Origin: Bactericera cockerelli
Taxonomy: Eukaryota > Arthropoda > Insecta > Hemiptera > Triozidae
Assembly (NCBI GenBank): GCA_024516035.1
Contig: CM044961.1
Location: 4,102,378 to 4,166,377 of the forward strand
Direction: 5' to 3'
DNA length: 64,000 nt
Shown here: positions 1 through 63,400 of the stretch, piece after piece
How positions within the stretch are numbered: position 1 is the stretch's first letter
Layout: each line of letters begins with the position of its first letter
Made by a program: the position numbers and the translations under genes
The notes under the pieces: model-generated
Told to the model about the DNA's origin: nothing
Databases searched by the model: none
What the model saw: only the letters and a program-made list of their open reading frames with translations

Positions 1-1995
1 CAGCACTTCCTGCAGTGGATACTTCTGCACCATATTCCTGAGGAACTCAATGATGAATAGAATAGAATAGAATAGAATAGAATTTCACTTACTGATAGGA
101 GACAGCAGAGTGTTGGGGTCAACACAGAACCCGACATAGGTGTGGAAAAAACTCCAGCACCTCCTGCAGTGGATACTTCTGCACCATATTCTTGAGGAAC
201 TCAATGATGAATAGAATAGAATAGAATTTCACTTACTGATAGGAGACAGCAACTCTGCTGTAAGAATAGAATAGGATAGAATAGAATAGAATAGAATAGA
301 ATAGAATAGAATAGAATAGAATAGAATAGAATAGAATAGAATAGAATTTCACTTACTGATAGGAGACAGCAGAGTGTTGGGGTCAACACAGAACCCGACA
401 TAGGTGTGGAAGAACTCCAGCACTTCCTGCAGTGGATACTTCTGCACTATATTCTTGAGGAACTCAATGATGAATAGAATAGAATAGAATAGAATTTCAC
501 TTACTGATAGGAGACAGCAGAGTGTTGGGGTCAACACAGAACCCAACATAGGTGTGGAAGAACTCCAGCACTTCCTGCAGTGGATACTTCTGCACCATAT
601 TCTTGAGGAACTCAATGATGAATAGAATAGAATAGAATAGAATTTCACTTACTGATAGGAGACAGCAGAGTGTTGGGGTCCACACAGAACCCGACATAGG
701 TGTGGAAGAACTCCAGCACTTCCTGCAGTGAATACTTCTGCACCATATTCTTGAGAAACTCAATGATGAATAGAATAGAATAGAATAGAATTTCACTTAC
801 TGATAGGAGACAGCAGAGTATTGGGGTCCACACAGAACCCGACATAGGTGTGGAAGAACTCCAGCACTTCCTGCAGCGGATACTTCTGCACCATATTCTT
901 GAGAAACTCAATGATGAATAGAATAGAATAGAATAGAATTTCACTTACTGATAGGAGACAGCAGAGTATTGGGGTCCACACAGAACCCGACATAGGTGTG
1001 GAAGAACTCCAGCACTTCCTGCAGCGGATACTTCTGCACCATATTCTTGAGAAACTCAATGATGAATAGAATAGAATAGAATAGAATTTCACTTACTGAT
1101 AGGAGACAGCAGAGTGTTGGGGTCAACACAGAACCCGACATAGGTGTGGAAGAACTCCAGCACTTCCTGCAGTGGATACTTCTGCACCATATTCTTGAGG
1201 AACTCAATGATGAATAGAATAGAAAAGAATAGAATAGAATTTCACTTACTGATAGGAGACAGCAGAGTATTGGGGTCCACACAGAACCCGACATAGGTGT
1301 GGAAGAACTCCAGCACTTCCTGCAGTGGATACTTCTGCACCATAATATTCTTGAGGAACTCAATGATGAATAGAATAGAATAGAATAGAGTTTCACTTAC
1401 TGATAGGAGACAGCAGAGTATTGGGGTCAACACAGAACCCGACATAGGTGTGGAAGAACTCCAGCACTTCCTGCAGTGGATACTTCTGCACCATAATATT
1501 CTTGAGGAACTCAATGATGAATAGAATAGAATAGAATAGAGTTTCACTTACTGATAGGAGACAGCAGAGTATTGGGGTCAACACAGAACCCGACATAGGT
1601 GTGGAAGAACTCCAGCACTTCCTGCAGTGAATACTTCTGCACCATATTCTTGAGAAACTCAATGATGAATAGAATAGAATAGAATAGAATTTCACTTACT
1701 GATAGGAGACAGCAGAGTATTGGGGTCCACACAGAACCCGACATAGGTGTGGAAGAACTCCAGCACTTCCTGCAGCGGATACTTCTGCACCATATTCTTG
1801 AGAAACTCAATGATGAATAGAATAGAATAGAATAGAATTTCACTTACTGATAGGAGACAGCAGAGTATTGGGGTCCACACAGAACCCGACATAGGTGTGG
1901 AAGAACTCCAGCACTTCCTGCAGCGGATACTTCTGCACCATATTCTTGAGAAACTCAATGATGAATAGAATAGAATAGAATAGAATTTCACTTAC
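1..1995 (-). repeat. unc80: 148-bp tandem array of unc80 exon 17 end plus donor (13 copies plus the real one)
   Basis: Donor copies (exon-end coordinate) lie at 93, 237, 357, 505, 653, 801, 949, 1097, 1250, 1401, 1552, 1700 and 1848, with the true one at 1996. Each unit holds about 100 nt of exon 17 (from FLKNMVQKY to LLSPIS), the donor GTAAGTG, then (TTCTA)n and CATCATTGAG. The pyrimidine-rich (TTCTA)n followed by AG directly before TTTCTC looks like an acceptor, making each unit a possible 106-nt exon. The copy near 240 is truncated by a run of (GAATA)n. Copies are nearly identical, so expansion is recent or homogenised. Confidence 0.95.
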
Positions 1996-2234
1996 TGATA
2001 GGAGACAGCAGAGTATTGGGGTCCACACAGAACCCGACATAGGTGTGGAAGAACTCCAGCACTTCCTGCAGTGGATACTTCTGCACCATATTCCTGAGGA
2101 ACTTGGTGAACAGCCTCGGGTTGACGCGCTTCAGTTTGGTGAGCAGGGAGGTGGCCTGGGAGCGGAGGAAGTTGCCGGGGGGGCCGCGCTGACCATCGCC
2201 ACACCCGTGGGGGCAGCCTAGGTGACGCAGCACC
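1996..2234 (-). CDS. unc80: unc80 exon 17
   Basis: Encodes [40 protein letters not shown] and [20 protein letters not shown]; the vertebrate counterpart reads HLGCAHGCGEGHRGPPG. Acceptor cctccag, donor TATCA|GTAAGT, phase 2 to 1. Everything from 1995 to 1 is an array of copies of its last ~100 nt with the donor. Confidence 0.93.
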
Positions 2235-60400: not shown

Positions 60401-63400
60401 AGTAATTATCGCCCCATTACAATCTTGTCATCCATTCCAAAACTTTTTGAATCTCTTGTCCTTGATGAAATTGCTCCCTTTATCTTCAGTAGGATTATCT
60501 CGAATCAGCATGGCTTTCTTCCACATAAGTCTGTTACATCCAACCTTCTTTGCTATTCACAATTTATCTTTAACAATCTTTCTTCTCAGATTCAAGTTGA
60601 TTCTATATATTTAGACCTATCTAAGGCTTTTGATAGGGTGAACCATAGATTACTCTTGGACAAATTATCATCGTTTGGGTTCACAGGACTTCTCCATTGT
60701 TGGTTTTCTTCTTATCTTTCTCAAAGACAATGTCTTGTGCGTGTTGGTTTATCAGTTTCAGATAGTTTTGTCTCTTCTTCAGGTGTTCCCCAAGGAAGCC
60801 ATCTAGGTCCCATACTGTTTCTCTTGTTTATCAATGAAGTCAATACATGTTTGTCACATTTTGATGTTGAATTCTTGCTTTTCTGTGACGACTTCAAACT
60901 ATTTCGGAGCATAAATTCTCCAGCTGACCATGCTATTCTTCAAGATGCACTTTCCGCGCTCTGTGATTGGTTTACTTGTAACGAACTCACTGTGAATCCC
61001 TCTAAATGTAATGTGATTACTTTTTCTAGATCAGTTAATCCAAAGTTTTATACTTATACAATTGATCATTCTAATGTTACTCGTTGTTCCACTGTGAGAG
61101 ATCTTGGTGTGATCTTTGATTCTAAAATGAGTTTTGTTCCCCACATAAATATGATCACTTCTAAAGCCTCGAAAGTCCTAGGTTATGTGTTTCGAACGTC
61201 TAGAGATCTCCCAAATGTCTTGCCTCTAAAGATCCTCTTTTGTTCTCTTGTCCGAGGAATACTGGAGTTTGCGTCTCCTATCTGGAACCCATCCTACGCA
61301 TGTCATATTCAAGCTCTGGAACGTATACAGCACAGAGCTCTTAGAATTATGTCAAGAAAGATGTGTACACCTTATCTATCCTACACTGCATTGGAATCTT
61401 CTCTTACACTCTTACCTTTATCTGATCGAAGAACTCTTTTTGATATGATTACTCTTCATAAAATTATTCATGGTAATCTAAACGCTCCTAGCTTGAATGA
61501 TTATATCATTGTTAACAGACCCACTTATCCTACACGGAAATCTATTCCTTTCTATCCATCTTTTGCTCGTTCAAATTATATGCAAAGTTCGCCCTTGATC
61601 CGCATTCAGAGAACAGCAAACATTTTGTCCTCTGAAATCGACATATTCTCCACAACAGTTGATCAATTGAAAATCCATTTCCTTGGTAAACTAGAACTCT
61701 CGCCTTGAACATTCTTTTTCCCCCCTTTTTCTTCTTCTTCTTTCCATCTGGACAATTCCCCTTCCCCCTCTTCACTTTAGTTTAGAGATATAGTATTAAT
61801 TTTAATATTCTCTTATGAGCATTATTTTTTAAGCTAGTTAATAAGTTTAGTATTATTATACATTAAGCTAGATAGGCCAAATATTGTATTAGTTAGCCAT
61901 GGGTCCGCCCGTTTATTATATGTAAATAAATAAAATAAAATACGCGACCAGTGGGGTCAAGGACCTGTACAAGTTAGGGTTCTACTCCGGCCCCACTCAG
62001 GCTGGTTGAGGTTTAAGTTGTATTCTCTGTTCTCTTACAGCTACGTGTTGACGGGTGGGGAGCAGTCAGTGATTCACTACTACGAGACCAGTGGGGTCAA
62101 GGACCTCTACAAGCTGGAAGGATTCACTGCACCTATTGTCAGTATACTGAGGTATAGCATTTGTTTTTTTATATTAATTTCATTATAAAATTGTATTGAG
62201 ATATTAGAGACCTGTGTATACATATAAATAAAATAGTTATAATTGTCAAAGTATAATGATTTTAAAGAAGTCCTCACTACAGTAGAATGTATTTCGTTTC
62301 AAGGATTTTATATGAGTTTGATAGTTTCATTTTATGCATTGATATTCCATATTCCACATCTCTGTAGTTTGGAAAAGTTCAATTGTGGAGGGCAGAGTAT
62401 TTTATTTTCCCTATTTCTAGTGTTGTAATTATGATAATTTTCATATTTGGCAAAAATATTCGATTTTTTTCTTTTTTTTTTCTTTTTTTAAAGATGAGTA
62501 TTTCACAGCCTTTTTTTCGTAGCCATCAAACAGGAGCTACTGTAGACGCTTATGCTTTGTGTTGTAGCTTGCCCATCCCGTAGTATGCCTCCCCTCTGAT
62601 GACACAACACTTCCCATTTAGGTGCTGGGTCAACAACGGAAGGTATCCCTTACAAACAATTCTAACCAAATTAAGAATACAAATTTTTGTCGGCACGGGG
62701 GATCGAACGCGGGACCTTCCGCATGGGAAGCGAGTGCTTAACCACTGAGCTAATCGCCCGCTCGTTTTATAATTTTGTTTTATTAAGAGGATGCATTCAA
62801 TTGTATAAATAGATGACAGAGTCTCAAATTCTCACAGCCGATATAAAATACCAATACCATAAAATACGTTAAACAGGGAGACGACCAGTGTCTTGCTAGA
62901 GGACTATTAACAGAGAACACACTATCCAGTATCCAACCCTTACAAGCCAAGCTAGGTTGCAGTTTCCCAAGGGTTTAACGACTTATAAAGAAAAAGTCCC
63001 AAGTCCTCATGATGGTTGATCGCACATAGAAATATGTGGTTCAGGACGAGCCAACATTGAAATAAAGTTGGCTGGAGACCATCACTCACTCCTCCAGCTG
63101 TAGCCAAACTGGAAGGATTTTATATGATGACAGCGTCTCAAATTCTCAGAGCCGATCATTCATTCATCATCATTATTAGCCTGATCAATCCCCATCCGGA
63201 GAAAAGGCCTCTCCTAGTTTCTTCCATTGTATTCTATCTTGTGCAGCATGTGTCCATAGTGTTCCTTCTGTCTTCCTTATTGAGTCTTGCCATCTGGTTG
63301 CTGAGCCCATATAAAATACCATTTTCTCTCTCAGGTGCGGAGTCAAGAGTGTGTTCGCAGTGGTGACGGCGGATCACAACATCAGTCTGTACAAAGTGAA

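Follow-up and report, generated by a model that had tools for sequence, protein, structure and literature searches.

Minisatellites called mirages are said to have been described originally in Canestro 2002. In amphioxus, these minisatellites span exon-intron boundaries, and they are reported in Adh3, the globin genes BflGb6 and BflGb9, troponin C, and PGBD5 (PMC3087553, PMC3902484). Their units range from 10 to ~160 bp, and the copy number in BflGb6 is 6 and 3 between haplotypes. Splice signals are retained in many copies (PMC3087553, PMC3902484). Among the matches listed, whose titles and abstract openings are the source here, exon-boundary mirages appear only from lancelets (PMC3087553, PMC3902484). 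One proposal is that mirages supply material from which new introns arise (PMC3087553), and a mirage-rich genome would therefore make this idea testable.

The window analysed here is a 64-kb stretch of DNA with two adjacent genes. The gene on the minus strand is unc80, based on PDB chains named 'Protein unc-80 homolog' and on Pfam UNC80_N (E 1.4e-91). The gene on the plus strand is Tbl3, based on a PDB match to 'Transducin beta-like protein 3' (E 1.5e-78). With exons anchored by hand, 16 unc80 exons (U1-U16) and seven Tbl3 exons (T1-T7) were rebuilt. U1-U16 joined form a single open frame without a stop, and the frame of T1-T7 is open once the end of T1 is shifted by one base. U7 can be joined to U8 in frame without an intervening exon, so unc80 numbering is one lower from U8 on than in an earlier, sequence-only reading of this DNA, and exons 9, 10, 12, 16, and 17 of that reading are U8, U9, U11, U15, and U16 here. 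Its Tbl3 exons 4, 5, and 7 are taken as T2, T3, and T5, T1 being the first Tbl3 exon mapped.

Junction copies were counted with 24 bases centred on each of 46 edges, allowing at most 4 mismatches within 12 kb. Extra copies are seen at 13 of the 46 edges of unc80 and Tbl3 in the window, corresponding to 9 of 23 donors and 4 of 23 acceptors. The repeat unit is composed of the exon end, the splice site, and the adjoining intron, and boundaries of both kinds are affected. With 40-base windows (at most 8 mismatches), 12 of the 46 edges persist and the U6 acceptor is lost. The U15 acceptor has a single match at 4 mismatches, which was counted as chance and not as a 14th array edge. Tandem exon duplication was rejected: every exon is matched over its full length once in each locus, and further matches are partial.

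All unc80 exons and arrays given here are on the minus strand, and these exons are supported by an open frame and splice sites, U16 also by the UNC80 match. The U16 donor array (1-2103) has ~148-bp units and, within the window, 13 extra copies of the junction; it overlaps exon U16 (1996-2234) and runs beyond the window start. The U15 donor array (2934-3905; exon 3880-4103) has 41-bp units and 15 extra copies. At U11 (12678-12865), six extra donor copies are found in an array of ~131-bp units at 11722-12773. U9 (19143-19355) and U8 (20597-20727) have two extra donor copies each, in arrays of 103-bp units (18894-19235) and 146-bp units (20294-20691), respectively. The donor of U6 (23883-24108) has three extra copies and one partial copy at 22718-23957, interrupted by SINE-like repeats; its acceptor has one extra copy at 44-bp spacing (24109-24160), found with the 24-base window only.

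Six extra donor copies belong to U5 (39053-39218). A copy adjoining the exon lies at 38936-38979, and most of the array, with ~99-bp units, is displaced to 31421-31869, ~7.2 kb away in the same intron, a LINE-bearing stretch separating the parts. The U5 acceptor array (39399-39654) has ~103-bp units and two extra copies. The donor array of U4 (exon 40996-41141), at 40309-41010, has 20-bp units and 34 extra copies. One extra copy of the U4 acceptor lies at 43790-43998, with a DNA transposon between it and the exon. This element (41278-43785, no strand assigned), which sits inside the acceptor duplication, has 420-bp inverted ends that are 99.5% identical, and its transposase-like ORF (42003-43079) matches DUF4817 above the cut-off, other matches being below theirs.

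In Tbl3, on the plus strand, exon T2 (56935-57115; open frame, PDB match) has a donor array of 127-bp units at 57074-57478 with two extra copies. The T3 edge duplication (57913-58046) has 95-bp spacing and a second copy of 39 nt. The acceptor of T5 (62041-62151; open frame) has five extra copies in an array of 140-bp units (58883-62113), which is split by a reverse-transcriptase ORF at 59642-61705. Thus, every unc80 and Tbl3 junction named as repeated in the sequence-only reading has its repeats, and the units are unlike, as claimed, from 20 to 148 bp across two genes on opposite strands. Two details depart from that reading: the U5 donor array is mostly displaced, and at T3 and at the acceptors of U4 and U6 there are only about two copies each.

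If the genome is simply rich in tandem duplication, the exon-edge arrays might be merely those that a reader recognises, and this locus was chosen for its striking look. TRF finds arrays without exon knowledge (score at least 100, period at least 15, not low complexity), yet 10 of 17 TRF arrays in the window contain an exon edge, against 0.93 expected with units placed at random (P 1e-9). The GC-matched expectation is 1.25 (P 1.5e-8). For BLAST-defined duplications, 10 of 26 contain an edge against 2.18 expected (P 2e-5). By unit placement, then, edges at the unc80/Tbl3 locus are included far more often than at random, as the sequence-only reading had supposed. Positional nulls, which are weak, leave more room for chance: 20-23% of the tested window positions likewise have a nearby 24-mer copy, without significant edge enrichment, and when array footprints are moved round the window, they hit edges a mean of 3.8-4.1 times, compared with 6-7 observed (fractions 0.08 to 0.17, not significant). 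Both are judged too loose because long arrays occupy much of the window. Chance also leaves unexplained the synonymous bias described below, and it is a very improbable account, even with the results from other chromosomes that follow.

In six chaperonin-gene stretches on other chromosomes, no clear excess is seen: 3 of 13 TRF arrays are junction arrays against 1.04 expected (P 0.07), and 4 of 15 BLAST clusters contain an edge against 2.94 expected (P 0.33). Edges there were called automatically and partly poorly, one donor scoring -7.1. Two more chaperonin arrays (L032 7547-7697 and L033 6956-7080) reach a splice site but include hardly any exon sequence, and they are left out of these counts. 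A genome-wide junction bias, which had been offered as a possible cause, is not demonstrated by these stretches, in which the excess at edges is not significant.

A mutational hotspot would make tandem duplications start unusually often at splice junctions, whether owing to transcription, to R-loops, or to the change in GC content from exon to intron. The excess of edge-spanning units at unc80/Tbl3 is in line with it, as are the GC content of exons (0.561 vs 0.371 outside) and the following 36 kb, in which four of another 11 arrays are junction arrays. However, GC matching hardly moves the expectation (1.25 vs 1.07), the chaperonin stretches do not repeat the excess clearly, and the difference between donors and acceptors (10 to 4) is not significant (P 0.18). 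Longer persistence of junction arrays predicts the same excess. Such a hotspot is considered unlikely.

The locus is present three times in the assembly, twice on a single contig at a distance of 0.4 Mb, and haplotypes may therefore be falsely duplicated. One 140-bp array consists of 5.4 units at 100% match, as an assembly artefact might. Nevertheless, units differ among themselves, transposable elements are inserted within arrays, and the three places agree on most array sites while differing in copy number, so that an artefact is hardly conceivable. Arrays are present at 10 of 13 edges in the locus copy at C7:4.50 Mb and at 7 of 11 comparable unc80 edges in the copy on C352. The three loci have 34/49/103 extra copies at the U4 donor (20-bp units), 15/22/5 at the U15 donor, 13/8/12 at the U16 donor, 0/1/2 at the U10 donor, and 2/0/0 at the U8 donor. 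These locus copies, among which array copy number varies, may be haplotypes or recent duplicates. Shared sites with differing copy numbers indicate real, length-variable minisatellites. Among nine exons compared across the three loci, 50 of 51 differences are synonymous and one is unclassifiable.

The intronic copies bear a trace of the coding frame. Variants segregating among them are synonymous in the true exon frame at 37 of 69 (0.266 expected, P 1.8e-6), and the shifted-frame controls give 17/69 and 7/69. On a transitions-only assumption, the bias in the window alone weakens to P 0.016. Eleven variants are common to copies and exon alleles against 2.34 in the null, and 11 was reached in 0 of 2000 trials. 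Junction arrays are also somewhat more homogeneous than other arrays (10 vs 7 arrays, P 0.03, with match percentages entered by hand). The synonymous bias in the exon frame suggests that the working exon end has repeatedly given rise to copies or traded sequence with them. Such a supply could account for the intact splice sites of the copies, too. The other 32 of 69 copy variants are non-synonymous, and much of the history of each copy is therefore unconstrained. Only 1 of 12 modal unit lengths is divisible by 3, with single units varying, so copies read as exon extensions would mostly lose the frame. In only 4 of 12 comparisons are copies, on average, closer to the exon of their own locus than they are to copies elsewhere, so there is no sign of recent within-locus exchange; copying-out on several separate occasions, or shared variation of old date, fits this result equally well. 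A gradient of divergence with distance from the exon is absent in 4 of 5 arrays, the exception being U16 (rho 0.56, P 0.045).

Copied donor sites might instead be retained by selection, as back-ups that secure splicing or as U1-binding sites that shield long introns from premature polyadenylation. This shielding, U1 telescripting, is reported for human, mouse, and Drosophila (PMC5499120). The 9-nt donor core in the window copies has 6 substitutions and 2 indels over 758 positions, compared with 165 and 161 over 4863 in the rest of the unit. Offset permutation in the window gives P 0.002 for substitutions and 0.0007 with indels, and P is at most 0.021 when any one of 8 arrays is dropped; in the other two loci, P is 0.016 and 0.006. 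Leaving out the two short-unit arrays weakens the window result to P 0.048; leaving out U4 in the other two loci gives P 0.097 for substitutions alone and 0.032 when indels are included. When the core of the exon itself is the reference, 18 of 963 core positions in the copies are changed, a rate not clearly below that in the adjoining exon sequence (17 of 749 at -10 to -4, 29 of 1428 at -60 to -41). GT is altered in a few copies. A special constraint on the donor core, strong in the window but weaker in the other loci without U4 and against the exon's own core, was therefore set aside as the main basis. Coding sites are constrained as well, as expected from exon supply and not from splice-site function. 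Selection for back-up splice sites, another cause suggested by the sequence-only reading, is unneeded given the coding constraint on the exon part of the copies, and we regard a back-up or U1-binding function as quite unlikely.

The arrays are probably mirage-type minisatellites with repeated copying from, or swapping with, the working exon end. They would start when a short local duplication lands across a splice junction. The duplication may be tolerated, its surplus becoming intron, because the spliceosome could still use the exon-proximal site. Copy number, which is observed to differ, would then shift by unequal exchange or slippage. The synonymous bias and the variants shared with exon alleles suggest that the working exon end stays in this turnover, with copies taken from it or trading places with it. 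Exon selection would keep renewing the units. Junction arrays refreshed in this way would be recognisable for longer, and this may help to explain why they outnumber purely intronic arrays. More tentatively, it can be speculated that coding exon ends are members of recombining minisatellites, copies and exon end repeatedly replacing each other. A satellite that looks neutral might then store selected exon ends, and part of the evolution of the exon end might come from exchange with it.

Human internal tandem repeats in segmental duplications are likewise of minisatellite type, lie at exon-intron boundaries, and vary in number (PMC2812944). Those repeats change exons or give rise to introns in recent paralogs, whereas here the frame is intact and the copies are in presumed intron. 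Intron gain by duplication also involves tandem duplication and splice signals (PMC2891723), but there a duplication within an exon makes a new intron, and here existing introns are lengthened. The sequence-only reading considered this kind of array unfamiliar; the same structure has already been named mirage in amphioxus, with units spanning the boundary at both donors and acceptors (PMC3087553, PMC3902484). In BflGb6, the cluster ends are excluded from homogenisation, and regular mRNA splicing is reported for amphioxus mirages (PMC3087553, PMC3902484); for the present locus, what is shown is the open frame over 16 exons. Unlike in amphioxus, two adjacent genes in one 64-kb window have 13 of their 46 edges affected, several arrays are broken by transposable elements, and copies are under coding constraint. 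The host is probably not a cephalochordate; the DUF4817-type transposase and UNC80 suggest an arthropod. A little-known kind of minisatellite is extended to a gene with a dense series of them and, probably, beyond the phylum in which it was described. The synonymous bias among intronic copies, with its shifted-frame control, provides a simple sequence test of the role of exon ends in satellite turnover. The mirage structure is known already from amphioxus, and the synonymous bias among intronic copies is new here.

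In the 565-Mb assembly the window corresponds to G000:C7:4102378-4166377, and it is animal DNA. A transposase carrying a DUF4817 domain, together with the appearance of UNC80 and of the LINEs, suggests an arthropod as the likely host. On its minus strand, 16 coding exons (U1–U16) are joined into a single open frame, identified as unc80 by matches to UNC80 chains of PDB and to Pfam UNC80_N. Tbl3, on the plus strand, has seven exons (T1–T7). Extra copies of the 24 bases across an exon boundary (here "edge") lie up to 12 kb away at 13 of the 46 exon edges, which are nine donors and four acceptors; a copy at a 14th edge, the U15 acceptor, is treated as chance and left out. 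With a 40-base criterion, 12 edges still have copies. The arrays of amplified exon-intron junctions named in the sequence-only reading are all present, and its unc80 exon numbers beyond 7 are too high by one, since U7 joins U8 in frame. The units of these junction arrays are 20 to 148 bp long and unlike one another, which indicates separate origins.

Several other features are seen in the introns. A CA/GT dinucleotide microsatellite of 39 units (48304-48381) starts a few bases past the U1 donor, which also runs into the repeat. The U14 donor abuts a tRNA-like (SINE) sequence, as judged by eye (9073-9157), and no more than a few bases seem to separate this element from the start of the intron. 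The U10-U11 intron contains inverted repeats, 542 and 138 bp long and 96-97% identical (13510-16093), with about 0.5 kb between the facing repeats. A long AT-rich intronic satellite with 82/108-bp units (27825-30125) contains no exon edge; the two further copies of the locus have 82-bp-unit arrays as well.

When arrays were detected by TRF, blind to exons, 10 of the 17 in the window contained an edge, against 0.93 expected with units dropped at random (P 1e-9; this and the following enrichment P values are post hoc, the window having been picked for its striking look). Stricter score cut-offs leave an edge in 10 of 15 and 10 of 13 arrays. A GC-matched null gives 1.25 expected (P 1.5e-8), and among duplications defined by self-BLAST, 10 of 26 contain an edge versus 2.18 expected (P 2e-5). 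Two looser nulls are not significant in the window: 20-23% of the tested positions likewise have a nearby copy of their 24-mer, and shifted footprints meet edges 3.8-4.1 times on average versus 6-7 observed (fractions 0.08 to 0.17). The unit-placement null is preferred because arrays grow after their founding. Edges are thus spanned more often than chance at this locus under the unit-placement, GC-matched and BLAST nulls.

The assembly contains two further copies of the unc80 region, one at C7:4.50 Mb and the other on contig C352, whose full-length exon matches are 94.7 to 100% identical. This threefold presence points to haplotypes retained in the assembly or to a duplication of recent date. 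By the same procedure (within 9 kb), arrays are found at 10 of 13 edges in the C7:4.50 Mb copy and at 7 of 11 comparable unc80 edges in the C352 copy. Copy numbers at the three loci are 34, 49 and 103 for the U4 donor, 15, 22 and 5 for the U15 donor, 13, 8 and 12 for the U16 donor, 6, 10 and 8 for the U11 donor, and 2, 8 and 0 for the U5 acceptor. The U8 donor is occupied in one locus (2, 0, 0) and the U10 donor in two (0, 1, 2). In total, 16 of 46 edges have an array in any of the three loci, including the U15 acceptor regarded as chance. TRF arrays contain an edge in 11 of 19 and 6 of 12 cases in the other two loci, where some edges are counted as two arrays and the counts are not independent of the window. 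Transposable elements sit inside the arrays. Within the U4 acceptor duplication lies an element that has a transposase-like ORF and inverted ends of 420 bp, SINE-like repeats are interspersed among the U6 donor copies, and the T5 array of the window is interrupted by a reverse-transcriptase ORF. No gap of this ORF's length separates the T5 array from its exon in the copy at C7:4.50 Mb. Because the further copies carry arrays and transposable elements are embedded in them, assembly error is very unlikely as the source of the arrays.

The next 36 kb of unc80, with homology to UNC80 that is clear over residues 1170-1248 and weak from there to 1369, contains 11 TRF arrays besides that of U16 (period at least 15, score at least 100, no low-complexity filter). 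On inspection by eye, open stretches and splice signals mark four of them as clear junction arrays; three are at donors, with 142-, 107- and 110-bp units, and one is at an acceptor, with 57-bp units. In the same region (L026 6252-7114; 26252-27114 of the stretch C7:4066001-4102377), an array of 17-bp units, about 50 in number, contains TATATCC and directly follows an unc80 exon ending NKATWPAW; this exon has no obvious GT donor and may have a U12-type AT-AC donor.

Chaperonin (CCT) genes were located with Pfam PF00118, and six stretches (about 57 kb) were sampled. Junction duplications are present in four of them (L032, L033, L035 and L036), which means that such structures also exist outside the unc80/Tbl3 locus. 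These six stretches do not show a genome-wide preference for edges: the excess is not significant for TRF arrays (3 of 13 with an edge versus 1.04 expected, P 0.07) or for BLAST clusters (4 of 15 versus 2.94, P 0.33). Copies within 3 kb are found for 7 of 62 automatically called edges (one a poor call) versus 7.8% of random positions. Separately, a short COX1-like stretch matches 16 places in the genome, one above the family cut-off (L029, L030 and L031, on C2 and C12). In L030 it lies beside an apparent Tc1-type transposase piece, recognized by eye, as if the element had carried mitochondrial DNA.

The copies bear a coding signature, which is a new, testable point. In the window, 28 of the 51 exon-versus-copy differences are synonymous (25% expected, P 7e-6). 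So are 20 of the 40 variants segregating among copies alone (two-sided P 0.0016; the one-sided P is 0.0008 with the transition excess as observed and 0.016 with transitions alone). Over the three loci, with ends trimmed, the true frame makes 37 of 69 copy variants synonymous, where 26.6% would be expected (P 1.8e-6); the two shifted frames give 17 and 7 of 69. Exons of the different loci differ from one another at 51 sites in the nine exons examined, 50 synonymous and one not classified, and 11 variants are common to copies and exon alleles versus 2.34 expected. As the modal unit length is a multiple of three in just one case out of 12, copies read as extensions of the exon would mostly have been out of its frame. 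The simplest reading is that copies were repeatedly taken from the selected exon end, or swapped places with it. Copies are nearer their own exon in just 4 of 12 comparisons, and divergence from the exon shows no gradient with distance in four of five arrays; copying may have run in either direction and at various times.

Among the copies in the window, the 9-nt donor core varies less than the rest of the unit, with 8 changes in 758 positions versus 326 in 4863 (permutation P 0.0007 with indels, 0.002 without; at most 0.021 when any one array is dropped, 0.048 without two short-unit arrays). Outside the window the effect weakens: for substitutions at the two further loci P is 0.016, or 0.097 when U4 is left out. 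Set against the core of the exon itself, the copies show 18 differences in 963, not clearly below the adjacent exon bases (17 in 749). Supply from the exon would leave intact donors without any back-up function. U1 telescripting is another possible reason for their being intact. Selection for back-up splice sites and a duplication hotspot (R-loops or stalled U1), both proposed from the sequence alone, are possible or weak as causes of the arrays.

The arrays correspond to mirages, that is, minisatellites across exon-intron boundaries, and a new kind of structure is not supported. A literature search of titles and abstract openings, with poor coverage of subscription literature, found no exon-boundary mirages outside lancelets. 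In amphioxus, mirages are described in Adh3 and globins, where their length is unstable and splicing is apparently regular (PMC3087553), and also in PGBD5 and troponin C (PMC3902484). The authors of the globin study regarded the mechanism as unclear, and mirages were proposed there as a source of new introns (PMC3087553).
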